A stretch of DNA of 59,557 nucleotides, taken from IMG/VR virus record IMGVR_UViG_3300043331_000269, positions 1 through 59,557 of that record. The stretch is one strand, 5' to 3'. This DNA is from a virus. The first letter of the stretch is position 1; the number at the start of each line of letters is the position of its first letter. The notes beneath the pieces are model-generated. The model was not told the origin of the DNA and did no database searches. It was given only the letters and a program-made list of their open reading frames with translations. The position numbers and the translations under genes are program-made. Shown here in pieces: positions 266-56,360 of this stretch.

Positions 266-294
266 AATGTACGCCACCGCCTGTGCGGAGTCAA
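266..294 (-). promoter_or_regulatory. Sigma70-like promoter for the reversed cassette
   Basis: Minus-strand -35 TTGACT (294-289), 17-base spacer, -10 TACATT (271-266). The same -35 and spacing recur at 14.5, 17.6, 36.9 and 46.7 kb. Here the message has a short leader with a Shine-Dalgarno site, unlike several relatives. Confidence 0.75.
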
Positions 295-14489: not shown

Positions 14490-14518
14490 AATCTACTCCG
14501 CATAGCCTGCGGGGTCAA
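14490..14518 (-). promoter_or_regulatory. Promoter for tRNA-like RNA and GroES
   Basis: -35 TTGACC (518-513), 17-base spacer containing the palindrome CCGCA-GGCTA-TGCGG, -10 TAGATT (495-490). The first base of the tRNA-like acceptor stem is 9 bases after the -10, so transcription should begin at or within two bases of it. Confidence 0.8.
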
Positions 14519-14525
14519 GCCTAAT

Positions 14526-16127
14526 CTACCGTCCACCACGATTCAGGTATCCCCACTTGCTCCCTCCTGACGGCTCTGGGTTGTGGAGTGACTTCAGGTA
14601 AGCCTGAAGCTCTCGCTGGCGCTGCTCTAGGAGCGTGCCTTGGGGCTTGTCGGGCTCGGCCGGCTTGATCTTCAGGCCGATCGTGTACGCTTTCAGGAGA
14701 GCCCCTGCCGCTGCCGCGACGTAGTCGTCATGCCCGTTCTTGGGATGGTCAATGATGTCGCCGCCACGGGACGGCTTGCGGTCCAGGCTAAGTAACTGGA
14801 CCTTTAGGCGCTTGTCGTCGGGGAGGTCTACGGCCTTCTCCATGAGCGCCGGCAGCCAGTTACGGTAGATTTCAGAGGTAGTTAACTCTGAAGGCTGGTA
14901 GCCGACTCCGTGTGCCCGGAAGCGGTCCGATGGCCAGTCGCCCGCGTACCGATCGCCCTCCACGAAGCGGAGCCCGTAGCGCTGGAGGTGGCCCACGAAC
15001 GAAGCGACCACTACTCCCGGCTCGAAAGGCGGCTCTACGCCCACCAGCAGGTCCAGGACGACCTTCCGCCGCACGTAGTCCGCATGCGCGATAGCGAGCG
15101 TCATGGAGTCCGCACCGGAGCCTCCAGCGGGGTCGCTGAACGCGAAGTAGTGCTGGTCCTTGTCCGGAGCCAGCCAGCCACGAGGCGTCATCGCAGCCGC
15201 TACGATGTCCTCCGTGACGAACGCCATGACATCCTTGCGGAACTCGGCGCCGTATTCGGTCGCTGCCGCGATCGGATCTGTTCGATACGCCTCCTCGACC
15301 TCCTCCGTGAGCTTCGGGACACCCGGGGACATGTACAGGGAATCGGCCTTCCAGAATAGAACCCCCGTGTCCCTCCCGTAGTTTTCCTGAAAGCGCTCGT
15401 AGAGGATTCCGCGGGGAGCGTAGGGGCTTGAGAATCCGCCGATGAACGAGCCCGGCACTCGAGACATGCCGGCTTTCACGCCCCGCACGATTTCCTTGTC
15501 GGGGTTGGCGCCGTCGTCGTCAGCGAAAAACGCAACTTCGTCCAGCAGCCCCACGACCGTGGACGTAGAACGGCCCGCCCGGATGTTGCACGCCACGATT
15601 TCGATGTCCACGCCGCAGGTGAGCGGGATGGACTGTTCGGGCGGGTCCTCCGTCTCCAGGAAGCATCGGAGGTTGGACGTCTTCAGGATGGAGAGGGCGT
15701 ACGAGCGGATCTGCTTGGCCTCCTTCTTGGTCGCGGCGATTATGGGCACCTTCCCGCGCTCGCCGGGAGCAAGAATGCCAGTCTTCGCGGAGTAGTCGTA
15801 GAAGATCGCGCGCCAGACAGCGATCAGAGCAGCTACGGCCGATTTCCTCGCTCTGCGCCCAGCCGCAACCCATACCTCTTTCGCCAGCTCCGTGGGCGGC
15901 GTCCTGCGGCCCGTGCAGTGCCGGTAAATCTCCAGCTCCTGCGGTGTCATCGGAAGCCCGTACAAGGCGCACAGGAAGGCGCGCCAGGGCGTCCAGTCCC
16001 CGCCTGTCTTGAACCAGGGCAGCGTGTCCATCAAGTCCACGATCGTGAACTCGCCCCGCGCTACGGCTTCAATGGTGGCTTCGTGGACCGCCCGGTAGTT
16101 TTCCGGGGAGAGGGGGATGTCAGGCAC
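14526..16127 (-). CDS. terL: Terminase large subunit
   Basis: 533 residues from GTG at 16127. ATPase: Walker-A variant AAGRRARKS (residues 88-96) and Walker B VVGLLDE (191-197), with a C-motif-like GGFSSP near 230. Nuclease: FSDPAGG (D332), EGDRY (D392) and HDDYV (D467/468) supply the acidic triad. It is the motor that pumps DNA into the capsid through the portal and cuts it. It lies beside an HNH gene and 1.5 kb from the small subunit, but on the opposite strand and 24 kb from portal, which is unusual. The start is uncertain because no strong ribosome site precedes it. Confidence 0.93.
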   Translation of the reverse strand: MPDIPLSPENYRAVHEATIEAVARGEFTIVDLMDTLPWFKTGGDWTPWRAFLCALYGLPMTPQELEIYRHCTGRRTPPTELAKEVWVAAGRRARKSAVAALIAVWRAIFYDYSAKTGILAPGERGKVPIIAATKKEAKQIRSYALSILKTSNLRCFLETEDPPEQSIPLTCGVDIEIVACNIRAGRSTSTVVGLLDEVAFFADDDGANPDKEIVRGVKAGMSRVPGSFIGGFSSPYAPRGILYERFQENYGRDTGVLFWKADSLYMSPGVPKLTEEVEEAYRTDPIAAATEYGAEFRKDVMAFVTEDIVAAAMTPRGWLAPDKDQHYFAFSDPAGGSGADSMTLAIAHADYVRRKVVLDLLVGVEPPFEPGVVVASFVGHLQRYGLRFVEGDRYAGDWPSDRFRAHGVGYQPSELTTSEIYRNWLPALMEKAVDLPDDKRLKVQLLSLDRKPSRGGDIIDHPKNGHDDYVAAAAGALLKAYTIGLKIKPAEPDKPQGTLLEQRQRELQAYLKSLHNPEPSGGSKWGYLNRGGR

Positions 16128-16581
16128 GTTGACGGGTTCGCTCCGCTTGCAGCGCGGCTCGCTTCGCCTTCGTTCTGCGGTCGTGAATCCTGGTACAGAG
16201 AAGGCACCTCTTCCCACCCAATGGACTCCCCGCCCGCGGGCGACCGTTCACGTCCAATGGATGTCCTCGCTTGCAGTGGGTTCGATGAGCGACAGCCCAC
16301 GCTTTGGCTCGGCGCACGTTCTCGGCATGCGTGACCGCTTCAAGATGGGAGGGCCGAAGGCAGGCACGGTTCCGGCAGAGATGGTCAACTTCCATCTCGC
16401 GCGGCAGCCATCCGTACAGGGACATGTAGAGCAGTCTATGCGCGTTGATGTTCCTGCCCTGAAAGCCTACCACTCCGTAACCGTTAGTCCTGGAGCCTTC
16501 CCACTCCCAGCAGCCATCTCCACCGATTTGGACACGGGAAAGAGCCGCCTCTAAGGCAGACTTCCACCTCACCCTCATCAT
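16120..16581 (-). CDS. HNH endonuclease next to terminase
   Basis: 153 residues. GDGCWEWEGSRTNGYGVVGF, AHRLLYMSLYGWLP, then VDHLCRNRACLRPSHLEAVT is the HNH core, and THCKRGHPLDVNG with CLLCTRI is the C-terminal zinc ribbon. ATG overlaps the upstream stop (ATGA) and its end overlaps the terminase start. HNH proteins next to terminase can stimulate DNA cutting for packaging in HK97-type phages, but the four similar genes elsewhere favour a homing endonuclease. Confidence 0.87.
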   Translation of the reverse strand: MMRVRWKSALEAALSRVQIGGDGCWEWEGSRTNGYGVVGFQGRNINAHRLLYMSLYGWLPREMEVDHLCRNRACLRPSHLEAVTHAENVRRAKAWAVAHRTHCKRGHPLDVNGRPRAGSPLGGKRCLLCTRIHDRRTKAKRAALQAERTRQRA

Positions 16582-16799
16582 GACCGTTTCGCCGTGGCCC
16601 TTTCCGCCTGCCTCAAATAAACCAAGAGCATTGCGGATGCGTCTTTTCGCCTCGCGCTGATCTTCAGCGGGCGCTTGTTCGGAGCGCTCACGGCCCATTC
16701 TCCGTGACGCCGAAGCGCTCGGACGGTCAACCCTAGGTCGCGCGCCATCGCAAGCGCGTCGGCCAGCTTCGGTACTCCGCCGTTCAGGGGACGGCTCAT
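16578..16799 (-). CDS. Small basic protein of terminase operon
   Basis: 73 residues, MSRPLNGGVPKL start, coupled by ATGA on both sides. KLADALAMARDLGLTVRALR followed by a short beta strand and ARRKDASAMLLVYLRQ suggests an alpha/beta DNA-binding fold. No family recognised. Confidence 0.65.
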   Translation of the reverse strand: MSRPLNGGVPKLADALAMARDLGLTVRALRRHGEWAVSAPNKRPLKISARRKDASAMLLVYLRQAERATAKRS

Positions 16800-17302
16800 G
16801 TCCCGTAGTGGCCGTAGCCAGCCCGGTAGGCCATCCCCGGCCGTCTCTGGTTGCCAAAGTCCACGAGCACGCGGCATGCCTTCCGAAGATCGAACGTCAG
16901 GCTCTGCTCCCAGCGTTCAGAGGCCCTCTCCAGTGCCGGATAAGAACGCCCCTGGTAGGGTACAGCCTCGTTGTAGTTGTAGACCGGCTCACCGAGAGAA
17001 GAGATGTCGTAGCAGGTCCGCTCTTCGCCGCCCCAGCGGATGCCGAAGCGCTCCGGATCGGCCGGATGCCGGAACGCCACCCAGCCCTCGAAGCCTTCGG
17101 GGTAGGGATCGCCGCTCCGGAGAAGGTCAATCCTCCCGTGCTCCTTCCAATCCGAAGTGGCCGGAACCAGAGTGAAGCAGAAGGCATCGTAGGGGTACGC
17201 GCCGGACTGCATCAGCGGCAGCGCGGCATCTTCCCCACGAACGGCCCTCCCCACCAGCGGAGCCGCCAGCAGAGACGCGATGAACCCTCTTCTATCGACC
17301 AT
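16796..17302 (-). CDS. Exported protein with Tat-type signal peptide
   Basis: 168 residues, ATG behind GGAG. The first 26 residues read MVDRRGFIASLLAAPLVG and end near an Ala-rich site: twin Arg, then a moderately hydrophobic stretch, as in Tat signals (S/T-RR-x-F). The mature part has about 140 residues with conserved-looking W, Y and two Cys and no known domain. Tat export implies folding before transport to the cell surface or periplasm. Placement inside the terminase operon is odd. A Sec signal is the alternative reading. Confidence 0.6.
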   Translation of the reverse strand: MVDRRGFIASLLAAPLVGRAVRGEDAALPLMQSGAYPYDAFCFTLVPATSDWKEHGRIDLLRSGDPYPEGFEGWVAFRHPADPERFGIRWGGEERTCYDISSLGEPVYNYNEAVPYQGRSYPALERASERWEQSLTFDLRKACRVLVDFGNQRRPGMAYRAGYGHYGT

Positions 17303-17632: not shown

Positions 17633-17661
17633 AATCTACTCCGCCGGGGCTGCGGAGTCAA
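17633..17661 (-). promoter_or_regulatory. Promoter with palindromic spacer
   Basis: -35 TTGACT (661-656), 17-base spacer, -10 TAGATT (638-633). The inverted repeat ACTCCGC-7-GCGGAGT fills the spacer exactly and touches both hexamers, an ideal repressor site. Confidence 0.8.
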
Positions 17662-17670
17662 GGCTTACCG

Positions 17671-27478: not shown

Positions 27479-27515
27479 CGTGCGTGCATTCGTGGTCCTG
27501 TGAGACGGGGCGACG

Positions 27516-27524
27516 TGGTAGAAT
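27516..27524 (+). promoter_or_regulatory. Extended -10 promoter for small RNA
   Basis: TGgTAGAAT, with the hexamer at 27519-27524 in a palindrome GTAGA-A-TCTAC. No clear -35. Its transcript would be about 70 bases and end at the terminator 27570-27598. Confidence 0.5.
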
Positions 27525-27529
27525 CTACG

Positions 27530-28118: not shown

Positions 28119-28281
28119 GGCACTTCACCAGCGGCGGGTCAGCCTCTACGAACTCCTCGCACGGGCAGTCCTCTTCATCGCACCACTGGTCAAAGCTGCC
28201 GTGTCGGCTCTTGGCGTGATCGCACCAGTCGCAGAAGGTGTCAGTCACGGGCGTCTCGTTCTTCGAACAAGCCTCACGCAT
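28111..28281 (-). CDS. Small Cys-rich protein
   Basis: 56 residues, MREACSKNETPVTDT start, with CDWCDHAKSRHG and CDEEDCPCEEF. Acidic zinc-type protein. It overlaps the HNH gene end by eight bases; GTG at 28248 is an alternative start. Confidence 0.55.
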   Translation of the reverse strand: MREACSKNETPVTDTFCDWCDHAKSRHGSFDQWCDEEDCPCEEFVEADPPLVKCRG

Positions 28282-29140
28282 TTCGTGCCGCCCTTCTCTT
28301 CGCCCTGGTCCTGGCGTCTGCCGCCCTGTGGCATCCACGGCAGACACGCCAGCCGGAGGGATAGACCATCAGGTTCCCTGCCGCCAATTCGTGCCCGTTG
28401 CGGCAATGGGTTCTTGTCGGGTCAACGGTTCGCTTGGTCGGTCCGGCGATGAAGGCGTGGTCGTTGGAGGCGTGGGCTTGCGCGAAAACGCGACAGATTC
28501 CACAGCGGCGACGGTCACGCTTCCGGGTCTTTCCCCACGCGCTGCGGCAGAGACGGCAGTCCCGTCGCCCAGAGGACCGTACGGGAGCGTCAGCTAGGGC
28601 GTGGCCCTTGGCGCACACGCTCCGTGGAGTACGTAGTTCGCGGTGCATCGCGGCGTGATCCTCCGGCCGGAGCGCCTGGAGATGCGCCGGATTGACGCAG
28701 GAGGGCACACCGCAGCGGTGATGAACCTCAGTCCCGGGCCCGACAGAGACCCCATTCGCGATGGAATACGCGAACCGATGCGCGTACATCTGGGCTCCGT
28801 CCACGCTGAATTTGCCGTACCCGAGCGGCACACTGGCTCCGGACCAGAGCCAACACCCGGGGGCGTCGGGCAGCTTCTCAACGCGGGACCAGAAGCGAGC
28901 GAGCACCCGCGCTCGCTCGTAGGACGGAGAGCCCTTATAGTATGGCCCCCGGCGGCGTGGCCTCTTCGGGTTCGCGCAGTCCTTGGATGCGTACTTTCTC
29001 TGCCGGCCGGACAGCAGGCGTCCGCAGCCGCACGCACACGCGGGCATGGCAGCCATCAGGATGGCTATGGCAACGTCTGCGGCGGTCGCAGGCGAGCCGT
29101 TCGCGTCCCATCCAGGGTCACCCTGCAGAAGCGTGCTCAC
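28274..29140 (-). CDS. HNH endonuclease with two C-terminal zinc ribbons
   Basis: 288 residues from GTG overlapping the upstream stop. Residues 33-50 contain a Cys cluster (CACGCGRLLSG), then FWSRVEKLPDAPGCWLWSG, HRFAYSIANGV, EVHHRCGVPSCVNPAHLQAL (HNH). Then come two ribbons, CAKGHALADAP..CRLCRSA and THCRNGHELAAGN..CRGCHRA. The first 31 residues differ from the relatives and may be a captured gene start or a non-native start; MAAMPACACG is an alternative start. About twice the size of its relatives. Confidence 0.82.
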   Translation of the reverse strand: MSTLLQGDPGWDANGSPATAADVAIAILMAAMPACACGCGRLLSGRQRKYASKDCANPKRPRRRGPYYKGSPSYERARVLARFWSRVEKLPDAPGCWLWSGASVPLGYGKFSVDGAQMYAHRFAYSIANGVSVGPGTEVHHRCGVPSCVNPAHLQALRPEDHAAMHRELRTPRSVCAKGHALADAPVRSSGRRDCRLCRSAWGKTRKRDRRRCGICRVFAQAHASNDHAFIAGPTKRTVDPTRTHCRNGHELAAGNLMVYPSGWRVCRGCHRAADARTRAKRRAARNA

Positions 29141-29391
29141 GCTGCGCTCCCGGCCTTGCCGGCCTTCCGCTGGCGGCGCAGCAACTGCTCGTTCTTGGCG
29201 ACCTTGGACAGCACGCCGCGCGCACCGTAGGCGACCCACGAGCAGTTAGTTTGGCGGAGCGTTCCCAGGCGATGGATGACCGCCTCCAGTTCGCGGTCGG
29301 TACAGCCGGCGATGACGTCCATCATCGCCCGGCAGGCGAGGTACACCTTCCGGCGCCCAGCGTTCCACGGCAGCGGCGATGGCTTCCTCAT
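29137..29391 (-). CDS. Hypothetical helical protein
   Basis: 84 residues, strongly basic at both ends (MRKPSPLPWNAGRRK; LLRRQRKAGKAG), ATGA coupling to the NinG-like gene. Possibly a recombination accessory by position. Confidence 0.6.
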   Translation of the reverse strand: MRKPSPLPWNAGRRKVYLACRAMMDVIAGCTDRELEAVIHRLGTLRQTNCSWVAYGARGVLSKVAKNEQLLRRQRKAGKAGSAA

Positions 29392-30698: not shown

Positions 30699-30916
30699 CA
30701 ACCCTCCCTGCGCCCGTCTCCGCGCTCCCTGCGGAACGGCGCGTTAGTTACGGCTGCGGCCACACGGCGCGCCATCCAGGGCCGAAGCCCCCGGCGCCAG
30801 TTCCGGCGACCGCAGTTGACAGCACCCGGCTCCGCTCCGAGCCAAAGCGGACCCGTGAGGGAGCGAAGGGTCAGGACCCCCACGCGGGCTTGCAGGGTGC
30901 TGTCAGCTACGGTCAC
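30698..30916 (-). CDS. Hypothetical basic protein
   Basis: 72 residues from GTG coupled upstream (GTGA). Arg-rich C-terminus (RRNWRRGLRPWMARRVAAAV). Codon positions fit; no motif. Confidence 0.5.
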   Translation of the reverse strand: MTVADSTLQARVGVLTLRSLTGPLWLGAEPGAVNCGRRNWRRGLRPWMARRVAAAVTNAPFRRERGDGRREG

Positions 30917-37237: not shown

Positions 37238-37786
37238 ATGAGAGCCCGCAACGCCCGACTGCTGCGGGCCGTTCTCGCTCAAGCCCATTTGCCCCCTAGC
37301 GGGCGCAAGAGCTTGAAGGTTATCGCCAAGCGGTACGGAATAACTGGGCATCAGGCCAGCAATATCGTTATCGAGGAGCTTGCCCGCGCTGGGCGCTACG
37401 TCACGCTTCGCGATCTGCAGGCCAGGGCCACCAAGCCGGGCCGCCCGCCCCGGCCGTCGCCGGAGGAGCTGTTCTGGCAGAAGGTAGACCGTAGGGGGCC
37501 GGAAGATTGCTGGCCATGGTCCGGCGGGAGGATGCCTACCGGCTACGGGTCTTTCCGCCCCGCAGTCCGTGGCCAGAGGTGGGGTTACGCGCATCGGGCC
37601 GCATGGGCCATCACGCACGGGCCCATCCCGTACGGCCTGTGCGTCTGCCACCACTGCGACAACCCGCCGTGCGTTAATCCGGCGCACCTGTTCCTCGGCA
37701 CTCATCAGGACAACATGGCCGATCGGGACCGGAAGGGCCGGACGCGCGGTGGCCCGCACGCTCCCGGCCGAGGGCTCCGCGTATGA
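37238..37786 (+). CDS. HNH endonuclease with N-terminal HTH
   Basis: 182 residues from ATG (GTG at 37217, overlapping the stop upstream, would add seven). SLKVIAKRYGITGHQASNIV is a DNA-reading HTH; DCWPWSGGRMPTGYGSF, AHRAAWAITHGPIPYGL and CHHCDNPPCVNPAHLFLGTH form the HNH domain. No C-terminal zinc ribbon, unlike the four minus-strand relatives. Confidence 0.85.
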   Translation: MRARNARLLRAVLAQAHLPPSGRKSLKVIAKRYGITGHQASNIVIEELARAGRYVTLRDLQARATKPGRPPRPSPEELFWQKVDRRGPEDCWPWSGGRMPTGYGSFRPAVRGQRWGYAHRAAWAITHGPIPYGLCVCHHCDNPPCVNPAHLFLGTHQDNMADRDRKGRTRGGPHAPGRGLRV

Positions 37787-40474: not shown

Positions 40475-43123
40475 TTGAGCGTCTCGAATCTAAGCAACCC
40501 TGGCAATCTGGTCTTCCCTCCGAAGGGCGCCGACGCTGTCCGGCTCCGTCAGTACGTCGATGCGGTCTGCGACCAGCGGTCCTCGTACCGAGCTGACCTC
40601 TACCGAGAGTGGGGGCTCTCCAAGAACTTCTTCGAGTCCAACCAGTGGGTTCGGCTGGACGCAAGACGCGATCCGCGCTCCTCGTTCCGCTGGACCAGCC
40701 AGGACCCCGCCGACGACATCCCGAAGCCGGTTCACAACAAAGTCCTGGAGCTGGTGGACAACGAAGTCGGGAAGACTTCCCGACGCCAGTCCAGGCCGTA
40801 CGTCCGTCCCCGCACGGGAGGCTCTGAGGCCAAGCGTGGAGGTACGAGGGTAGGGAACGAAGTCCTCAACTGGCACCTGGAGAAGATTCACTGGGGCCGG
40901 ATTCGCCATGAGGGCATCTGGAAGAACACCGTCTATGGCGTCGGGATCTGGCTTTCGTACTGGGATCTCGACTGGCGGAAGACGGTACGGCTGGGACTCC
41001 CCGGAGCCGTGAAGTGTGCCAACCCCTCGTGCGACTTCATCCTCGCCGATCCGAAGCTCCCACCGGAGGCTCTGAAGGGACTCCCCCCTGAGCACCGCTC
41101 CCGTGTTCAGCTTTCCGCCTCGATGGAGGCTGGCGAGCAGAAGATCGAAGGGACCGCCCGGGCTTGCCTCCAGTGCCAGGAGCCGCAAGGGCTCGTCCCG
41201 GCGAAGCTCCTCCCCAACGAGATCGACCGAAGGGACTCCTACGGGCGGGAGTTGGCCCGGGACGTTCCGATGGGCGACGCGAACATCGAGGTCATCAGCC
41301 CGGAATACTTCTTCCCCGAGAACGAAGGAATCGGCATCGACCCGCGGTCCATGGGCTCGTTCGTCATCAACAAGCCGGAGAGCTTGGACTACATCGCAGC
41401 CCACTACGACGTCACCGTAGACGCGGACGGGAAGGTCTGGAAGGGGACGGAGGAGATCAAGGCCGAAGATCCGGCAACTATTGCCGAATACCTGATGACC
41501 CTAGGGGACACGAATTTCTACTCCTCTGGGATCAAGGAGGCGCTCTCGGCCCGGAACGTCTACCGTCGTCACGTCCGTCTCCGTCAGGCGTACCAGCAGC
41601 CCACGAGGCAGTATCCCCTCGGGCGCATGGTTCACATCGCCAACAACGTCGTGCTGATCGATGACGACCTGATGGCGAAGTGCAAGCACAAGAAGGGCGA
41701 GTTCTACCCGCGGGTCAAGGTCGGGGTGGCGAGGTTCTGGCCGCGGGACGGGGAGTTCTTCTCCCAGGGCATGATCGTCCCGCTGGTGAGTCCGCAAAAC
41801 CGCCTGAACATGGCGTTCTCGCAGATCACGGACAACCGGGAGCGGAACGGTACCGATGGCCTGATCATCACGAAGGGCATGCGACTCCTGTCCCCGAACT
41901 GGCTGAAGAACTTCCCCGGCCGAGTGGCCGTCTGGGACATGGACCCGGAGGCCCCGAGCGCGGAACCGAAGCCGCTTCCCTCGCGCATGATCGACTCCCG
42001 CATCTACGAGGAGACGGACCGCATCGAGACGCACATGCGCTCCCTCACGGGGCAGCAGGACGTGGACGTCGGCAAGGCTGCGCCGGGGATCAAGGCGGCG
42101 CGAGCGATCCAGCTTCTGCAGGAGAAGTCCTCCGAGCGCAGGGACCAGCGGAACCAAGAGTATGACGAGTGCTTCCAGGAGCTGTTCTCGCACCAGCTCG
42201 TACTTCTCTCCGAGAAGGTCTTGGAGCCGCGCAGCTACGAGACTCAGGGGCCTGGAAAGTCATGGGAGATCAAGGAATTCACCGGGCTTGATCTCGCCGG
42301 GCTCACGGATGTGCGCGTAGAGGTAGAGGCTAGCTACAGCGACCAGCTATACGAGGCGCAGCAGGTCGAGGACAATCTCGATAGGGGATTGATCCCGATC
42401 GATACGCCCGTTGCTAAGCGCGAGGTGGCGAAAATCCTACGCATTCCTCAAGTCCTCATGGACGAGTCGAACGTGCAGATCGATGACGCGGAGCGGAAGT
42501 GGTTCGCCTTCCGACAGGAGGAGAAGGTCCCGAACCTGGACGAGAGCTTGGACAACCACGGGATCTTCTGGCAGGTCTACGGAAAGGCCCTGAAGGGCGA
42601 GGACGGCCGGGAGTGCGTCGAGAGATCGGGATGGGAGAACTTCCTCCCCGCATTGTCTGGATGGGAAGAGAAGCTCGCGATGGCTGAGCAGGCCGACGCG
42701 ATGGCCCGAGCCCTCCCGGCCATGATGCAGCAGGCCGAGCAGATGGGCCAGCCAGCCCCGATGCAGATTCCCCCCGAGCAGCTCGAGCAGATGCTCCTCC
42801 CCGCGGACCTTCCGTCCAGAATCTTGATCGTGTGGCTGAAGGCTCTAGCAGCGAAGGGAATCAAGGTCGAGGAGTCCGACCCCGTCGAGCCCGGAATGGA
42901 GCCACAGGAAGGCGTACAGGAGCCCACACGGCCATCCTACACGCTGACCTTCATGCGCTTCCGGGCCGTCTGTGAGGCTCACCGGCTGTATTCTCAGGGT
43001 AGGCAGCCTGGAGGCCCTCCGATGCCTACGGCTCCCATGGCGCCGGCTCCTGGGACTCCTCCGCCGCCGCCGATGCTGCCGCCTACCGGGCCTGTGGCTC
43101 CCGAGCCGCAGCTACCCATGTAA
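40475..43123 (+). CDS. Portal protein (P22-type, podoviral)
   Basis: 882 residues from TTG with CGGAGGAG at 5 bases. N-terminal region WGLSKNFFESNQWVRLDARR and IPKPVHNKVLELVDNEVGKT, central SQGMIVPLVSPQNRLNMAFS, and LTGQQDVDVGKAAPGIKAAR before a long helix are typical portal signatures. Residues 180-245 hold two Cys pairs (CANPSCDF, CLQCQEP), a zinc insertion that is unusual. The C-terminal 150 residues are Pro/Met-rich. It forms the dodecameric DNA gate at the capsid vertex. Confidence 0.87.
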   Translation: MSVSNLSNPGNLVFPPKGADAVRLRQYVDAVCDQRSSYRADLYREWGLSKNFFESNQWVRLDARRDPRSSFRWTSQDPADDIPKPVHNKVLELVDNEVGKTSRRQSRPYVRPRTGGSEAKRGGTRVGNEVLNWHLEKIHWGRIRHEGIWKNTVYGVGIWLSYWDLDWRKTVRLGLPGAVKCANPSCDFILADPKLPPEALKGLPPEHRSRVQLSASMEAGEQKIEGTARACLQCQEPQGLVPAKLLPNEIDRRDSYGRELARDVPMGDANIEVISPEYFFPENEGIGIDPRSMGSFVINKPESLDYIAAHYDVTVDADGKVWKGTEEIKAEDPATIAEYLMTLGDTNFYSSGIKEALSARNVYRRHVRLRQAYQQPTRQYPLGRMVHIANNVVLIDDDLMAKCKHKKGEFYPRVKVGVARFWPRDGEFFSQGMIVPLVSPQNRLNMAFSQITDNRERNGTDGLIITKGMRLLSPNWLKNFPGRVAVWDMDPEAPSAEPKPLPSRMIDSRIYEETDRIETHMRSLTGQQDVDVGKAAPGIKAARAIQLLQEKSSERRDQRNQEYDECFQELFSHQLVLLSEKVLEPRSYETQGPGKSWEIKEFTGLDLAGLTDVRVEVEASYSDQLYEAQQVEDNLDRGLIPIDTPVAKREVAKILRIPQVLMDESNVQIDDAERKWFAFRQEEKVPNLDESLDNHGIFWQVYGKALKGEDGRECVERSGWENFLPALSGWEEKLAMAEQADAMARALPAMMQQAEQMGQPAPMQIPPEQLEQMLLPADLPSRILIVWLKALAAKGIKVEESDPVEPGMEPQEGVQEPTRPSYTLTFMRFRAVCEAHRLYSQGRQPGGPPMPTAPMAPAPGTPPPPPMLPPTGPVAPEPQLPM

Positions 43124-43827: not shown

Positions 43828-44069
43828 AAGCCTGCGACTGGCTCCCGTCCGAGGCCCTGTACGCCTTCGCGGGCTGGCTGGCGTCTCGTCCGAAGCGCAT
43901 CACTCTCAGCGACAAGGACAGCTCCGCGCCAATCGGGGATCTCGTAGCTGAGTTCTGTAAGCAGTACGGGCTCCGGGAGCCTCGTAACATCGCCTGGAAC
44001 CGCCCGGAAGAGTGGGAACGGGCTAGCGCGGCACTCCATGCCTACGTCGGCCCATACGAGAGGATGTAG
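43824..44069 (+). CDS. Hypothetical helical protein
   Basis: 81 residues from GTG, MKACDWLPSEALYAFAGWLA start, aromatic-rich and helical. GTGA coupling. Unknown. Confidence 0.6.
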   Translation: MKACDWLPSEALYAFAGWLASRPKRITLSDKDSSAPIGDLVAEFCKQYGLREPRNIAWNRPEEWERASAALHAYVGPYERM

Positions 44070-44070
44070 C

Positions 44071-44354
44071 GTGAGCGAGAGCGCCCCTCACGTCCGCCTG
44101 TTCGTCTCGGTAGACGGTGAGTGCCGCAAGAGGTCAAGCAGCCGGCGGCCGATGGTACATGGGTGGAGCGCTCAGGGGATCTAGTCTCACAGGACAGGTG
44201 GTTAGAGGGCAGGGTCTACGTGAACCGTCCATCCGAATGCCAGATGGTCGCGTGGCCTGTCCCGAGGACGCAGGCGATCCGCGACCAGGAGAACCGCATC
44301 CGAGTAGCCATCGATGATCTCGTGGAGTTCCTGAACGTCATGGGGGCGGACTAG
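44071..44354 (+). CDS. Hypothetical protein, possible frameshifted gene
   Basis: GTG at 44071 gives a 37-residue frame (MSESAPHVRLFVSVDGE then Arg/Ser-rich). A second frame from GTG 44121 gives 77 residues (MPQEVKQPAADGTWVERSGD to the TAG at 44354). They overlap by 64 bases. The first frame looks natural up to about 44117 and the second afterwards, so one ancestral gene joined by a frameshift is plausible; alternatively only 44121-44354 is real. Confidence 0.45.
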
Positions 44355-44588
44355 ATGAGCGATGCGTTCCGAGCAATACGTGTTGTCCTACGCCGGCTCT
44401 GGTGCGCATCCGGGCGGCACCCATACGAGAATCAGGTGTGCCTCGACAGGCGTGCTGTCCGAAGAGTCTGCTGGCGATGTGGCATCGAGACGCCATGGTT
44501 TGAGGCATCCCTTACCAATAGGAATGGGTATCTCCCCGGCCCAAGGCCGATCATGTCTCAATCGCGGCCCCTTACTGGAGCGGACTGA
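44355..44588 (+). CDS. Small Cys/Trp protein
   Basis: 77 residues. RLWCASGRHPYENQVC and CWRCGIETPW form four zinc-type Cys. ATG directly after the previous stop. Confidence 0.6.
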   Translation: MSDAFRAIRVVLRRLWCASGRHPYENQVCLDRRAVRRVCWRCGIETPWFEASLTNRNGYLPGPRPIMSQSRPLTGAD

Positions 44589-44802
44589 ATGGCGATCGTC
44601 CCCTCCGACCTACCCTCCGCAGGCGGAGGACAGGCTCAAGCGCCTCAAGTTCAACCGTATACGCATGGTTGAGTACCTGAAGCTCAAGATGGAGGAGGAA
44701 GATTGGCACGGTGTCCAGGACGCCGGCTCTGACCTCCGCGACATCGAGTCCGAGATCAAGGGCATCGAGTTCATGCGCGGCCTGCGGAACGTGCCGGACT
44801 AA
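44589..44802 (+). CDS. Coiled-coil protein, possible frameshifted gene
   Basis: ATG at 44589 gives a 27-residue frame (MAIVPSDLPSAGGGQAQAPQ onward). The shifted frame reads EDRLKRLKFNRIRMVEYLKL and a clear coiled coil to the stop at 44802, but has only a late ATG (44665) for itself. A shift near 44625 would join them into about 70 residues. Second such case within 700 bases. Confidence 0.42.
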
Positions 44803-44812
44803 GGGGGGAGAG

Positions 44813-45124
44813 ATGAAGTGGATCTGCTTCAAGGACCACTACATGCCGAATGCGTGGGGCTTCAGCTTGACCCCGCAGCCTCGGGAGTGCGGCACGTTCA
44901 GAGAATGGCTGCTCTGTCAGGTGATGTGGCACGGCCCTGAAGTGCTGAAGCGCAAACTCGCGGAGATCGGCTTCATAGACGCGGAGAACGAGGGCGGAAT
45001 CGCTTTCTGGCGCCTCGACTTCTGGAACTCCAAGATGCGCGCCCAGTTCATCGCCCACGAGCGCCGAGAGTGGGAACGGAAGCGGGCCGAGGCCATCGCA
45101 CGGTGGGGCGAAGGTGCCGGCTAG
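44813..45124 (+). CDS. DFWNS-motif protein, paralogue of the 5565 gene
   Basis: 103 residues, ATG behind GGGGGGAG. LLCQVMWHGPEVLKRKLAEI, then GGIAFWRLDFWNSKMRAQF, matches the C-terminal part of the 5565-5984 product. The N-terminus (MKWICFKDHYMPNAWGFSL) differs. Unknown. Confidence 0.65.
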   Translation: MKWICFKDHYMPNAWGFSLTPQPRECGTFREWLLCQVMWHGPEVLKRKLAEIGFIDAENEGGIAFWRLDFWNSKMRAQFIAHERREWERKRAEAIARWGEGAG

Positions 45125-45224
45125 CCCCTTCGACCCTCCCGAGCTAGTCCTCTGCGCGTTCTGTAGCGGAGGCTGTGAGGACTGCGACGGGACCGGAACC
45201 ATACCGTACCCGCCGGAAGAGTAG
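45114..45224 (+). CDS. Very small DnaJ-like zinc protein
   Basis: 36 residues from GTG, MPASPFDPPELVLCAFCSGG then CEDCDGTGTIPYPPEE. The CxxCxGG/CxxCxGxG pattern is a half DnaJ zinc repeat. Overlaps the previous gene end. A -10-like TAGAAT (45222-45227) follows at its stop. Confidence 0.5.
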   Translation: MPASPFDPPELVLCAFCSGGCEDCDGTGTIPYPPEE

Positions 45225-45279
45225 AATACGGACGTCCCTCGCGCGGGAACGGTAATAGCGCGCGTACAAGGAGAAACGC

Positions 45280-45744
45280 ATGGGACCGATTGACGAGGAC
45301 AACGATCCGATCCGAATTGTAGGGAACGGCTCAGGTTGCGGCGGCGTTGTGGTGACGAGTCAGCAGTCTCTCGGCGCGAAGCTCGGCCCCGGGATGCCCA
45401 GCATCCCGAGTAACCCGCAGTACGAGAACCGCCCCGCGTTCTTGACGGGAATGTCGGCGGGCTTGGCCCCAGAGCCAGAGCGCGACCCGCGCGACTGCAC
45501 CCCTCCGATGCGCGCTCAGTGGGGTCCGCAGGGTATCGAATTCGCCCGCTTCCATCTTGCAGGCGACCTTGACGTGCGCGTGCTCCACCCGCCTGCCGGG
45601 CTCAAGAACGTTCAGGTCGAGATCCTGACGGGAGCCTACTGGGGAGACGGGCAGGACACCCGGAAGAGCACCGTGCTCCACCTGTCGAAGTCCAGGGCTC
45701 GGGCTCTCGCATCCGCCATCATGGGCGCAGCGGCGGAACTGTGA
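45280..45744 (+). CDS. Hypothetical protein
   Basis: 154 residues, ATG behind AGGAGA. Disordered N-terminus; from residue 80 an alpha/beta unit (GIEFARFHLAGDLDVRVLHP; STVLHLSKSRARALASAIMG). Unknown. Confidence 0.62.
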   Translation: MGPIDEDNDPIRIVGNGSGCGGVVVTSQQSLGAKLGPGMPSIPSNPQYENRPAFLTGMSAGLAPEPERDPRDCTPPMRAQWGPQGIEFARFHLAGDLDVRVLHPPAGLKNVQVEILTGAYWGDGQDTRKSTVLHLSKSRARALASAIMGAAAEL

Positions 45745-45911
45745 GCGACCACGAGAAGGCGGAGCTGGTCGCCTCCAACATCCGTAGCCTCGCCTACATG
45801 TTCGGCCACGCCGGGATTTGCGACTTGGACACGGACGCGGCGAAGCGAGTCTCTGAGTTCTTGGCCGGCTTGGCTGATTCGATAGTAAGGTCGTATCCAC
45901 ATCCAGCGTGA
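45741..45911 (+). CDS. Small helical protein
   Basis: 56 residues from GTG: MSDHEKAELVASNIRSLAYM start; wholly helical. GTGA coupling. Last gene before the long gene-free stretch. Confidence 0.58.
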   Translation: MSDHEKAELVASNIRSLAYMFGHAGICDLDTDAAKRVSEFLAGLADSIVRSYPHPA

Positions 45912-46084
45912 CCAGGCCAGAGATCCGCAGTCGGCGGGGTAAACGCTTCCGTGGAGACCAAGCGCCCACCGTTTGCAGGCCGTGTAGGGCCGAGCGGCGC
46001 GGATTCGGCCCGTCCAAAAGTTAGCGCTCAGGCTTCGCGCGTCCAGGCCGCCGCGGAATTATCTCTAAGGCGCCGTAGTAGACG
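45912..46084 (+). other. Gene-free, structured upstream part of RNA region
   Basis: No credible frame. Stem CGCTT/AAGCG (about 45941-45961 region) and a strong 7-pair hairpin GGGCCGA (45987-45993) with TCGGCCC (46005-46011), lacking a U tract. It may be the 3' end or processing site of the preceding message, or the first domain of the RNA that follows. Confidence 0.4.
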
Positions 46085-46093
46085 TGCTAGAAT
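46085..46093 (+). promoter_or_regulatory. Extended -10 promoter of the large RNA
   Basis: TGcTAGAAT (hexamer 46088-46093); start of transcription expected near 46100, immediately before the first long-range helix. Confidence 0.5.
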
Positions 46094-46099
46094 CCAGTC

Positions 46100-46675
46100 C
46101 AGACGCAATCGGTGCTCGCCTAGAAAGACCGATGGCCCCCGTGAACTGGGAGCCATCGCGTTGAGGCGGGCGCCACCGAAGGTCTTAGGCGACGGTGACG
46201 AGCGGAATCATAGCAGACAACCCGCTACTACGTACAGCCCTCCGCCCAAGGAGAGGCTCGAAGATTAAGCCGCGTCGGCTGCGAGGCGCCCTGCGTTCAC
46301 GGGCAGTCCCCCGACAGCGCACAACCCGGGGAAAGCTTGAGGATTCCCCCGTACCCGGGACGGTGACGGCGACAGAGCGTGTCTCTTCGCTACGCCCGCG
46401 TCTAGTACGTAGACGTTAAGAAGGCGCGGGCCCTTTCTCTTCGGACTCGACTCCCTGTCCGGGCTGGACAAGGGAATAGGGCTCGGGGCAGGACTGGATC
46501 AACGGGTTGGGATAGCCACTGGCGAGCACACGCTCAGAGCCGGAGCCGTCCGGGGGAATCCGTGTAGGTGGTTGGCGCTGTTTGTGATAGCCAAGACGTA
46601 GCGACCAGAGCCCGGAAGACAGCCAGCCGGAACAGTAGATAGGGCCGACTCGCTAAGCGAGCATCCAGAAGCGAG
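46100..46675 (+). ncRNA. Candidate large structured non-coding RNA
   Basis: About 575 bases without a plausible gene on either strand. Helices: 46116-46122 with 46186-46192 plus 46126-46130 with 46181-46185 enclosing hairpin GATGGC/GCCATC (46131-46157); 46327-46333 with 46344-46351; CGTCTA/TAGACG (46399-46415); a nine-pair hairpin with one bulge (46452-46475); TTGGC/GCCAA (46572-46594); CTCGC-taa-GCGAG (46649-46661). Size, location in a phage and dense stems recall GOLLD and ROOL RNAs, but no family match is claimed. Ends are approximate. Confidence 0.55.
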
Positions 46676-46685
46676 CAGGAAAGGC

Positions 46686-46714
46686 TTGACTCGGCAGGCT
46701 ACGGAGAGTAGATT
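46686..46714 (+). promoter_or_regulatory. Promoter with leaderless start downstream
   Basis: -35 TTGACT (686-691), 17-base spacer, -10 TAGATT (709-714). Its spacer shares GCAGGCTA with the promoter of the tRNA-like RNA. ATG is 7 bases after the -10. Confidence 0.8.
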
Positions 46715-46721
46715 GGAGGGC

Positions 46722-46964
46722 ATGCACTACGACGGCGACGGCTGTAAGGAAGTGGACATGCAGAGCGAGCACGCCATCGATCTGGCGCCCAGCAAGGCCA
46801 GCCGGAGGCTGATCGCAGCGGAAAAGTTGGCGATCGCACTGGAGGCGGTCACCGAAGACAGGCGATATCAGAAGCTCTACGGCGCCCCGCACTTCACCAG
46901 CGCCCGGAAGGCTTGGAGGCTCGCGGCGGACGCCCTCTCCGCCTGGAAGGACGCCAACAAGTGA
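46722..46964 (+). CDS. Hypothetical helical protein, leaderless message
   Basis: 80 residues, MHYDGDGCKEVDMQSEH start. ATG is at the expected first transcribed base. An internal ATG at 46758 with AAGGAAG may be a second start. Helical body (KASRRLIAAEKLAIALEAVT; TSARKAWRLAADALSAWK). Unknown. Confidence 0.65.
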   Translation: MHYDGDGCKEVDMQSEHAIDLAPSKASRRLIAAEKLAIALEAVTEDRRYQKLYGAPHFTSARKAWRLAADALSAWKDANK

Positions 46965-47131
46965 GCCGTCCGACCTTCGCTCCGCGCGTCTCTTACCCAC
47001 ACTTCGGCTTCTTCGGAACAGGCCAGACGTACGGCTACGGCACGATCTGGCAGGCTGGCATCTTCCACGCTTCACGGCCTCTGGCGGTCAACCTTCTGCG
47101 GCCGATCTGGCCACGGGAGGCCAACAAATGA
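46961..47131 (+). CDS. Small aromatic-rich protein
   Basis: 56 residues from GTG, MSRPTFAPRVSYPHFGFFGT start; Gly/aromatic-rich. GTGA and ATGA couplings. Unknown. Confidence 0.52.
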   Translation: MSRPTFAPRVSYPHFGFFGTGQTYGYGTIWQAGIFHASRPLAVNLLRPIWPREANK

Positions 47132-47439
47132 ACGAGGCAACGAAGAGACATCCGCGGTATGTCGTGGGTGTTCTAGCCGCACTGCTCTTGGTGATGGTGG
47201 CCAAGAGTGCGCACGACCAGTTGCTCTTGGCGCGCGCCCATCGTAGTCGGCAGGAGCTTCTGGATGCCCTCGCTAGCACGACCGAGCGCCTTGCGCGGAA
47301 CACGGAACTGCTTCGTGAGGCCCAGTTGCGTCTGTACGGAACAGGAGTGACGGACGTTCGCGAGTCGGGCGGAGTCCGGACTCTCTACTTCCATGGCGCT
47401 ACCCCGGAAGACCTTGAGGTGATGAAGGGGGCCAAGTGA
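47128..47439 (+). CDS. Single-span membrane protein with coiled coil
   Basis: 103 residues. YVVGVLAALLLVMVAKSAHD is a membrane helix, followed by a coiled coil (SRQELLDALASTTERLARNT) and a small beta end (VRTLYFHGATPED). Unknown, possibly spanin-like. Confidence 0.6.
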   Translation: MNEATKRHPRYVVGVLAALLLVMVAKSAHDQLLLARAHRSRQELLDALASTTERLARNTELLREAQLRLYGTGVTDVRESGGVRTLYFHGATPEDLEVMKGAK

Positions 47440-47699
47440 CGGAGACCTGCGTCCACTGCCGGCATCGGAAGGACTCAGGGCCCGGCTGCGGGCTGTTGTT
47501 CCTTGCTGTTTTGGCGTATCTCTTTCTGTTCCTGCCATTCCTGAAGTTCATGGTGATTGCGAGAGATCATGCCGACGAGCGGATGGCGCGCCTGGAGCGC
47601 GCCGCTGGACTGCCGCCGCTTTCGAGTCCGGCCCCGCCCTCGTTCGTGCCGTGGAAGTTCCCCAAGAGGGGCCTGCTGGACTCGGAGGAGCAGAAGTGA
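47436..47699 (+). CDS. Membrane protein with CxxC
   Basis: 87 residues from GTG. CVHCRHRKDSGPGCG zinc-type N-terminus, then LLFLAVLAYLFLFLPFLKFM membrane helix and a Pro-rich end. GTGA coupling. Confidence 0.58.
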   Translation: MTETCVHCRHRKDSGPGCGLLFLAVLAYLFLFLPFLKFMVIARDHADERMARLERAAGLPPLSSPAPPSFVPWKFPKRGLLDSEEQK

Positions 47700-47923
47700 C
47701 CACAAGCTACGGACCGAAGGTCAGCTACAAGTGCTTCAACGATTGCGTTCAGACCGGCTGCCCTGGCCATACCCTCCGCGTGAAGTACCACAACACGAGC
47801 GACGTCATGTTCTTCGAGGACGAGCGCGGCGGTACAGAGGCGGAAGATCCGAGCGCCTGGCGTGCGAAGGTGTGGGCGTGGCAGCGGTGGCACAACGGCG
47901 AGCAGTCCGACGAGGCCGACTGA
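47696..47923 (+). CDS. Small Cys/His protein
   Basis: 75 residues from GTG. KCFNDCVQTGCPGHTLRV gives a CxxxC..C..H site. GTGA coupling. Unknown. Confidence 0.58.
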   Translation: MTTSYGPKVSYKCFNDCVQTGCPGHTLRVKYHNTSDVMFFEDERGGTEAEDPSAWRAKVWAWQRWHNGEQSDEAD

Positions 47924-47932
47924 GGAGCAGAA

Positions 47933-48040
47933 GTGAAGGACAGTCAGGCGCTTACCTGTACCGGCTGCTCCCGTCCAGTCAGCAAGCGTCGCCTCTCGAA
48001 CCGCAGCGTAAGCCCCTACTGCAAGCGTACGGTGCGGTGA
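47933..48040 (+). CDS. Very small zinc-type protein
   Basis: 35 residues from GTG behind GAGGAG: MKDSQALTCTGCSRPVSK onward, ending YCKRTVR. The CTGC..YC pattern resembles a half ribbon. GTGA coupling to the next gene. Confidence 0.5.
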   Translation: MKDSQALTCTGCSRPVSKRRLSNRSVSPYCKRTVR

Positions 48041-48378
48041 CGAGCCATCCGCTCGAAGCATTGTGGGAGGAGCCTGGATTCGTACTGGTCATGGGTATCT
48101 ACCACTGCTTCCGTTGCGGCGGTCGTCTCTTGAGTTACATGACAGAGATCGCAGTACGGAACGGAACGCGCCCGCCACGGGCTTGGGATTTCGCGAGCCA
48201 GCACGTACCCGAGTGCCGTCCTGTGGCTCGTGAAGATGTTGAGGCCATTAGAGATAGGATCAGGCGTAAGCTGGCAGAGCGCAGGGAGGAACGCGCCAAG
48301 CCACAAGGTCAACCGCCTCGCTATGATGAAGTGTACTTCGAGGGCATGCGCTGGCTGGATGAGCTGGCCCGGAGATAG
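48037..48378 (+). CDS. CxxC protein
   Basis: 113 residues from GTG (ATG at 48091 would give a 95-residue form). YHCFRCGGRLLSYM, a later HVPEC, then a charged helix (AIRDRIRRKLAERREERAK). Last gene before the capsid promoter. Confidence 0.58.
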   Translation: MTSHPLEALWEEPGFVLVMGIYHCFRCGGRLLSYMTEIAVRNGTRPPRAWDFASQHVPECRPVAREDVEAIRDRIRRKLAERREERAKPQGQPPRYDEVYFEGMRWLDELARR

Positions 48379-48479
48379 CGGAAGCCAGCCTAACCAATCC
48401 AGCGACCATCACTAAGCCGGCCTAAACTATCGTCCGGAGGTCATCGGTAAGAATTTCCGCTACCGTTCGTATCGGTCTG

Positions 48480-48488
48480 TGGTATAAG
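48480..48488 (+). promoter_or_regulatory. Extended -10 promoter of capsid operon
   Basis: TGgTATAAG (hexamer 48483-48488) with no good -35. A short hairpin GCGGTTC/GAGCCGC (48498-48513) lies between it and the scaffold ATG, perhaps a mRNA-stabilising 5' stem. Confidence 0.5.
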
Positions 48489-48524
48489 AGACTCACTGCG
48501 GTTCTAGAGCCGCGATGAGGTCCG

Positions 48525-49637: not shown

Positions 49638-50951
49638 ATGGCCGCATCCACGCTCGCGAACCTGGAGACATCCCTCAGGCGGATGTACTCCGACGAGACG
49701 TTCGAAGTCGCACTGAACATCGCCTGCCCCTACTGGCAGTCCCTGCAGGAGTACAAGGGCGAGAACCTCGAAGGTGAGGGCTACTACTGGCCCTTCTACC
49801 TTGCATCCCCGCAGAACATCGGCACGCCCGGTGAGAATGCGAACCTGCCGACGATCAGCCAGCGCCTGGAAGTTCAGGGTCGCATGCGTCCCGCGCAGTT
49901 CATCGCCACCTTCGAGCTGAGCTTCATCCTGGAGGCCATGGGTTCCGCAAGGGGCTCGTGGAACAAGGGCGAGGTCAGGCGCCACATGAAGGAGGCGATC
50001 GAAGACCTGTCCAAGCACTGCAACCGCATGTACGCGGGCACGCACGGCACGGGTCGTATCGCCCAGGTGCAGGACAACTCCTCGGGCGCCACGTTCATCG
50101 GCGCCATCGGAGCCGCAGGTACGGCGGAGCCGCACGGCGTCCAGCTCCTGCGACCGAACATGAAGATCACCCCCTACGCGGACGACACGGGCTCCGGTAC
50201 GGCGCGTGAGGCGGCGATCATCACCAAGATCGTGCAGAGCACCCGCGTCGTCACCACGGACACCACGCTGACCACCACCGTCGCCGGCGACGGCGTCTAC
50301 ATCACGGGCTCGTACGGTCAGACCACCGTCCCCAACGGCCTCATGGGCATCGTTGACGACGGTACGCTCCTGACCACGATCCACAACCAGAGCCGATCCA
50401 CGTACGAGGATCTGAAGGCCACCGTCCTGACGGGAGGCGGGTCGCTGTCTCCGCTGACCGAGGCGGATCTGCTGAACGGCGCGTTCACCGTGAAGCACCT
50501 CACCGGCCAGAAGATCACGGACATCCTGATGAACGTCGGCATGCTGGACGCCTACTTGGCGTTCGTGCGTCCCGACCGTCGCTACCCGGTGGCTCCTGGC
50601 CAGTCCGTCCCCGACTACAAGACGGGATACAACGAGGACAAGCTGGAGTTCCTGTGGGGCGGCGGCAAGGCCGTCATCACCTGTATCGACGACCTGGCAC
50701 CGCGCACGGTCATCGGCCTGACGAAGGACAAGCTCCGCCGGTTCAACCTGCGCAAGATGACGTGGGACCAGTCCTCGGGTGGGATCTTCAAGCAGGGCGT
50801 CAACTCGACCGGCTACAAGACCACGCAGCAGGCGACGCTCGTCCACCTCGAGAACTTGGGGAGCTTCCAGCCGAACAGCGCGTTCCGCATCGGCGACAAG
50901 CTCGACCGCATCCTGTGCGGCGCCGCCAAGGGCGGCACCGATTCGTTCTGA
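49638..50951 (+). CDS. Major capsid protein
   Basis: 437 residues, ATG behind AGGAG. LANLETSLRRMYSDETFEVA at the start and MNVGMLDAYLAFVRPDRRYP plus KAVITCIDDLAPRTVIGLTK toward the end are typical of HK97-fold podoviral capsid proteins. No protease gene is nearby, so cleavage is unlikely. It may need GroEL with the phage GroES for folding (inference). Followed by a terminator hairpin. Confidence 0.82.
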   Translation: MAASTLANLETSLRRMYSDETFEVALNIACPYWQSLQEYKGENLEGEGYYWPFYLASPQNIGTPGENANLPTISQRLEVQGRMRPAQFIATFELSFILEAMGSARGSWNKGEVRRHMKEAIEDLSKHCNRMYAGTHGTGRIAQVQDNSSGATFIGAIGAAGTAEPHGVQLLRPNMKITPYADDTGSGTAREAAIITKIVQSTRVVTTDTTLTTTVAGDGVYITGSYGQTTVPNGLMGIVDDGTLLTTIHNQSRSTYEDLKATVLTGGGSLSPLTEADLLNGAFTVKHLTGQKITDILMNVGMLDAYLAFVRPDRRYPVAPGQSVPDYKTGYNEDKLEFLWGGGKAVITCIDDLAPRTVIGLTKDKLRRFNLRKMTWDQSSGGIFKQGVNSTGYKTTQQATLVHLENLGSFQPNSAFRIGDKLDRILCGAAKGGTDSF

Positions 50952-50959
50952 TGCCCATG

Positions 50960-50990
50960 GGCCAGCCCTCGAAGTGTGGGGGCTGGCCTC
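50960..50990 (+). terminator. Hairpin terminator after major capsid gene
   Basis: Perfect 9-pair stem GGCCAGCCC (50960-50968) / GGGCTGGCC (50980-50988), then TCTTGACGTT. The U tract is short, so partial termination is likely, boosting capsid message over downstream genes. Confidence 0.65.
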
Positions 50991-51083
50991 TTGACGTTCA
51001 CGCCGTACGCTGCGGGTGATCTTCTGGCGATCCTGCCAGTCACCGTCCTCTAGCTGAGTACGGACCCGCAAAGGAGCAGTCAC

Positions 51084-55349: not shown

Positions 55350-56360
55350 ATGAACCTGCCGGCGGCGATAGACGCGATTCTGGAGCACACGCTAGAGGTC
55401 GATCCACGCGACTTCAACGCTATCCGTCTGCGCCGCCGAGTCTGGCTCCGTGCCATCGAGTACCTGCAGGAAATCTGGGACTCCTGGGACTGGGAGTTCC
55501 GGTACAAGGTGGACGAGCCGCTCGTCCTGCCCAGCGGAGACAACGAAGTCACCGCTCCGGCGGACTTCCACTCCATCGCCTACGAAGGGGCGATGTGGAT
55601 TCCGGCTCAGAGGACTCCGGTGCTCGAGCGGCCCGCCAACTGGCTCATGGAGTATCGACGTCGCAATCCGACCGTCTCGGGCTTCCCGGAATACTTCGCC
55701 GCGTTCGGCGCCGACTCAGACGGGCTAGCTGTGCTTCGCTTCGACAAGCTGGCGGGCGGCGACGTCACGCTCCAGATGGACTACGAGCGCCGCCCTCCGA
55801 TCCTGACCGACCGCCCGGACGACCTGACGGCCGTAGTGAACACGGGCGGAGTGTCCACGTTCACCGCTGGCGTGTACCAGTGGGAGCTGGTCTACGAGAG
55901 CGCAGAGGGTGAATCCATGCCCTCCGATCCAGTCTCGACCACGATCACGAACGCTCTCACGGACACCATCACGTTGACCATCCCCAAGGCTCCTACGTGG
56001 GCCAGGATCGTCTCGAAGAACCTGTACGGTACTGAGGTGGACGGATCAACCTTCCGCCTGCACACCGACGATATCGACCCTGACGAGGAGACGCTCACCC
56101 TGACCGCTCCGGTGTCAGGGGCGGCGGCGGAGATCGGGACTACATCCTCCGGCCTGGAACGTCTCCCGGAGGGCCTCTTCGGCGTGCTCCTGGAGGGCCT
56201 CAAGGTCGCCATGGCGTACGACGAGGGCGACTCTCGGTCCGGCGGAGAAGCTGAGGGCAGGTTCCGCAAGCGTCTGGGACGGTTCAAGCGGGAGTCTCCA
56301 GCGTACGAGCGAAAGGCACGTATCGGGGACCTCGGGATTCCTTCGTATCGAATGCACTAG
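55350..56360 (+). CDS. Head-tail adaptor candidate with inserted Ig-like domain
   Basis: 336 residues, ATG behind GGAG. N-terminal helices (FNAIRLRRRVWLRAIEYLQE, IWDSWDWEF), then LPSGDNEVTAPADFHSIAYE and RPANWLMEYRRRNPTVSGFP as in podoviral adaptor/connector proteins. An FnIII or Ig-like insert (QWELVYESAEGESMPSDPVS to about residue 255) comes before C-terminal helices (LLEGLKVAMAYDEGDSRSGG). It likely docks to the portal. Confidence 0.62.
   Translation: MNLPAAIDAILEHTLEVDPRDFNAIRLRRRVWLRAIEYLQEIWDSWDWEFRYKVDEPLVLPSGDNEVTAPADFHSIAYEGAMWIPAQRTPVLERPANWLMEYRRRNPTVSGFPEYFAAFGADSDGLAVLRFDKLAGGDVTLQMDYERRPPILTDRPDDLTAVVNTGGVSTFTAGVYQWELVYESAEGESMPSDPVSTTITNALTDTITLTIPKAPTWARIVSKNLYGTEVDGSTFRLHTDDIDPDEETLTLTAPVSGAAAEIGTTSSGLERLPEGLFGVLLEGLKVAMAYDEGDSRSGGEAEGRFRKRLGRFKRESPAYERKARIGDLGIPSYRMH

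Follow-up and report, generated by a model that had tools for sequence, protein, structure and literature searches.

The largest gene-free stretch in the genome of an uncultured phage, 810 bases between its portal and capsid genes, probably contains a functional structured RNA. The explanation that we tentatively put first, at a little below an even chance, is an orphan phage noncoding RNA of ~500 nt, occupying ~46100-46600 on the plus strand and made as a separate, trans-acting product.

The window, that is, the whole stretch of DNA analysed (59,557 nucleotides), is a complete genome of 59.6 kb with a GC content of 65%, circularly closed or terminally redundant because a 58-base repeat is present at both ends. 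Judged by its sequence, the phage is podovirus-like, uncultured and without close relatives, and ~90% of the genome is coding according to our own gene calls. The following genes define the setting:

14526-16217, minus strand: terminase of the ordinary large type
40475-43123: P22-type portal
49638-50951: major head protein
55350-56360: SU10-type adaptor

Large internal virion proteins and an Erf recombinase are also encoded. A tRNA search of the genome found none, hence there is no tRNA cluster or island. Three HNH_3 (homing-type) endonucleases are dispersed over the genome at 16120-16857 (minus), 28274-29239 (minus) and 37238-37786 (plus), one of them immediately upstream of the terminase gene, with which it overlaps by ~100 bases.

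The gap (45912-46721) is located in a structural block on the plus strand in which all genes run in one direction. Its limits are exact, from the stop codon of one small gene to the ATG of the next, so the 810-base gene-free stretch described in an earlier sequence-only reading was confirmed. The same reading had called it the sole gap longer than 300 bases, a claim that is not secure since six other gaps of 310-469 bases remained in our calls, which come from a crude gene caller, so that some of the six may contain missed small genes. The gap begins with a stretch devoid of signal:

45741-45911, plus strand: upstream gene, 56 aa, function unassigned, coding score +0.13 per codon
45912-46080: non-coding stretch with neither excess structure (z −0.15 for 45912-46095) nor coding signal (negative coding score)
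46722-46964, plus strand: downstream gene, 80 aa, function unassigned, coding score +0.31 per codon

Folding in excess of shuffled sequences was found in two parts of the gap, the hairpin-containing segment 46101-46180 (z −4.5) and the longer segment 46312-46586 (z −4.64, 500 shuffles), both on the plus strand. No excess was detected in the first 184 bases, 45912-46095, or in 46565-46700 (z +0.63), and the 810 bases taken as a whole departed only moderately from 20 shuffles (z −2.1). Thus, the large structured RNA proposed from the sequence alone retains its support over ~46100-46600 and loses it over the rest of the 810 bases. Its predicted architecture is as follows:

46101-46275, plus strand: domain I, an 11-bp helix (46111-46121/46164-46174) that encloses an inner hairpin (46127-46160), together with small hairpins
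46312-46586, plus strand: domain II, a long arm of stacked helices followed by a junction
46313-46326/46570-46582, 46341-46350/46552-46561 and 46358-46364/46545-46551, plus strand: outer helices of domain II
46367-46370/46539-46542, 46375-46382/46528-46535 and 46386-46392/46520-46526, plus strand: inner helices of domain II
46394-46431 and 46432-46497, plus strand: terminal junction hairpins of domain II

Pair probabilities in domain II are mostly 0.87-1.00, and its ladder of helices is interrupted by small internal loops, including a 2x2 GA/GA loop at 46365-46366/46543-46544 seen by inspection. The local helices named in the sequence-only reading do exist, although the hairpin at 46649-46661 is weak (−4.9 kcal/mol) and falls outside the structured part. 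In domain I, the helix named earlier (46116-46130/46181-46192) cannot coexist with the 11-bp helix present in the minimum-energy fold; it is a 12-bp, all-Watson-Crick helix (46116-46122,46126-46130/46181-46192) with a 3-nt bulge, and the fold containing it reaches −65.4 kcal/mol compared to −70.9 kcal/mol, a cost of 5.5 kcal/mol. These two modelled conformations may constitute a switch or be merely an alternative. Perfect 9-bp long-range pairings, such as 46092-46100/46491-46499, were set aside because roughly one is to be expected at random in 800 nt, and the example given also runs into the −10 site.

That site marks the 5' edge of the candidate RNA:

46081-46094, plus strand: extended −10 promoter-like site GACGTGCTAGAATC, predicted transcription start ~46100

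The extended −10 element previously noticed at 46085-46093 is indeed there, with the sequence TGCTAGAAT. The string GACGTGNTAGAATC occurs twice in the genome, and the 14-mer GACGTGCTAGAATC, a motif picked post hoc after being seen, recurs once, at 27512-27525, with one variable base and again in an intergenic position. This second copy stands directly 5' of two hairpins, the second of which is followed by the T-run TTTTCTTTT, and its recurrence before hairpins and a terminator makes GACGTGCTAGAATC more credible as a promoter. Neither a −35 hexamer (by promoter scan and inspection) nor an intrinsic terminator on the plus strand within the gap was found for the candidate RNA. Transcription would be expected to start at 46085-46093, and the strong hairpin of domain I would lie no more than ~10 nt from the predicted 5' terminus and shield it. 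The 275-nt stacked arm and branched junction of domain II would give a compact, stable RNA, which might act in trans in infected cells through binding to the ribosome or to a protein of the phage or its host.

The second copy of the motif belongs to an element of its own. The segment 27512-27605 (plus), on the strand opposite to the adjoining genes, comprises the extended −10 site, then a 9-bp hairpin whose loop is CUCUCC, a GC-rich hairpin and finally TTTTCTTTT (z −5.3). It is likely a small RNA, whose CUCUCC loop could pair with Shine-Dalgarno sequences.

The 3' end of the gap carries a promoter of a different type:

46683-46714, plus strand: sigma70-like promoter TTGACT-17-TAGATT, a copy of a family, with the predicted start at the ATG of 46722 (leaderless)

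TTGACT-17-TAGATT (46686-46714) was the sole sigma70-type site in a scan across 44000-48500. The 32-base motif recurs with at most three differences at 14490-14521 (minus) and 17633-17664 (minus), when none is expected in shuffles, and a weaker copy is present at 266-294 (minus); the family sequence is GGCTTGACTCCGCAGGC...GCGGAGTAGATT. In three copies the predicted start falls at the start codon or no more than ~10 bases from it, as established partly by inspection. On this sequence evidence, the last 40 bases of the gap are assigned as the putative promoter of the next gene and lie outside the RNA, so that this gene does not require the structured RNA as a leader. Two copies also contain an inverted repeat in the spacer, for example ACTCCGC-N7-GCGGAGT, which could be an operator.

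As the downstream genes would have their own promoter, the most likely role of the RNA is that of a separate trans product, not of a leader. A cis-acting role is nevertheless the strongest competitor, if an unlikely one: the structure would be a long leader or intercistronic element in the late plus-strand transcript, through which the capsid operon is controlled at the level of read-through, processing or stability in the manner of an attenuator or antiterminator. The position between co-directional portal and capsid genes fits such a role, and the two competing conformations of domain I could be a switch, but the promoter sits behind the structure, ~500 nt is long for an element of this kind, and there is no terminator-like site on the plus strand of the gap. 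The separate RNA is favoured by the hairpin directly behind the −10-like site and by a gap kept despite a ~90% coding genome. It is opposed by the lack of a homologue, of a −35 hexamer and of a terminator, by the moderate z of the whole gap, by minus-strand folding and by distant relatives without a gap.

The strength of the fold was assessed by a scan of the whole genome in 240-nt windows (step 120 nt, both strands, dinucleotide shuffles). Among the 990 windows, 46321-46560 (plus) ranked first (z −5.7, 25 shuffles), and the 784 coding windows had a mean z of −0.12 (s.d. 1.11) and a minimum of −4.0. Sixty coding windows equal in length to 46312-46586 had a mean z of −0.29 and reached no lower than −2.49, compared to −4.64. 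Both 46312-46586 and 46321-46560 therefore have folding energies below those of shuffles and of the genome's own coding windows, a general mark of a structured noncoding RNA. It is also unlikely, slightly more so than a cis-acting element, that the gap holds no functional RNA and consists of promoters and non-coding filler or spacer, with the fold a chance extreme. One genome was screened with 990 windows, a different one of which, only half of it non-coding, reached z −5.4, and no conservation was found in any collection searched. However, the value of −4.6 over 500 shuffles is lower than anything in the 784 coding windows, two separate domains are both strong, and the remaining top-scoring windows coincide in part with real structures, namely hairpins and terminators between genes.

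The minus strand of domain II also folds beyond shuffles (z −3.9). Excess folding on both strands of a large non-coding stretch could reflect an element that works as DNA, for example an origin of replication, a site for packaging or a dyad-rich region to which proteins bind. However, 15 of the 96 pairs in the domain II arm are of the G-U type, and such pairs do not form dyads in DNA; tandem repeats and iterons are also absent from the gap. The G-U pairs favour a plus-strand RNA although the complement folds too, and a DNA element is regarded as improbable.

Frames of 105 and 74 codons on the plus strand and of 68 and 74 codons on the minus strand are open in the gap. When scored with a codon model derived from this phage, they gave −0.07 to −0.21 log-odds per codon vs. 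+0.13 to +0.31 in the flanking genes; three-base periodicity was at the level of shuffles (0.81 vs. 0.74 ± 0.45), and Pfam and PHROG searches of the frames gave no meaningful match (best PHROG E = 0.089), in agreement with the earlier view that neither strand has a plausible frame. Gene remnants are frequent in phage genomes and the 105- and 74-codon plus-strand frames are open, but with clearly negative codon scores, no periodicity, no family match above noise and no tblastn match for the 105-codon frame against phages, gene decay, or small genes that escaped detection, is the least probable explanation of all.

No family could be recognised for the candidate RNA. A search with Rfam 15 returned nothing at gathering scores, and at E ≤ 10 only the chance-level matches SNORD23 and Ms_AS-5. 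The covariance models of GOLLD, ROOL, OLE and HEARO were accordingly unmatched at both thresholds, and neither group I nor group II introns gave a match to their conserved catalytic core, even at E ≤ 10; both neighbours of the gap read as complete small frames, themselves lacking relatives for a split-exon comparison. The phi29-type packaging RNA (pRNA) is a shorter structured phage RNA of protein-primed phi29-like phages, and it was ruled out by the ordinary large terminase of this phage, in addition to giving no Rfam match.

Relatives were also sought by sequence. The gap had no blastn match in phage and plasmid collections, and the best portal and capsid matches among 50,697 phage records were at 22-26% identity. 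Single-protein scans of IMG/VR with the capsid, portal and terminase recovered only terminases (40-46%); the records of the 35 loci from the terminase alignment contained no related capsid and no relative of the gap, with blastn matches to the gap of 11-27 nt at E of at least 0.013. Capsid alignments yielded three contigs at 22-26%. The portal-capsid interval of the distant relatives examined (MW202554, L007 and L044; 22-27% identity) had no comparable gap, and an apparent 883-bp gap in L044 proved by eye (alignment A2) to be the N-terminal part of the portal missed by the gene caller. Two scans of IMG/VR with exact RNA segments found no copy, and scans of GTDB with terminase and capsid found nothing. 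As the IMG/VR and GTDB scans depend on short, exact matches of peptide or DNA, and the collections may omit very near relatives, these absences are weak evidence of rarity.

Large structured RNAs known from phages are few, and what they do is still open. GOLLD, a large structured RNA with many members above 800 nt, and the large, ornate ROOL both come from phages and prophages, have no known function and build RNA-only cages (PMC12286853). GOLLD is often found near phage tRNA genes, whereas this genome has no tRNA; the candidate resembles ROOL in scale and phage origin but differs in having no Rfam match and no tRNA island. In the cluster A mycobacteriophages L5, D29 and StarStuff, a frame-free RNA of ~500 nt at the right genome end is highly transcribed in infection (PMC5712189). 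The candidate is similar in scale, but it lies within the structural block and not, as the mycobacteriophage RNA does, at the end of the genome under control of the early Pleft promoter, and it has no sequence match in the phage collection. By any feature tested, it belongs to none of GOLLD, ROOL and the cluster A RNA.

The candidate would be a new instance among large phage RNAs, an already known sort, represented by one unproven sequence. That it founds a new class, a large trans-acting phage RNA in the head-gene block with a promoter motif shared with a small RNA and a switchable domain I, is speculative and rather unlikely. If true, a further independent class among head genes would help to show what such RNAs do.

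Two other intergenic elements are structured. A 214-base gap at 30699-30912 (either strand) has an 11-bp outer helix, CTGACAGCACCC/GGGTGCTGTC, around a branched structure, with z −3.7 (minus) and −4.4 (plus) for 30815-30910; it matched nothing in phages or in Rfam. Directly 3' of the capsid gene, at 50950-51000 (plus), a strong hairpin, GGGCCAGCCCTCG/TGGGGGCTGGCC, is probably either a terminator or a 3' hairpin with a stabilising role.
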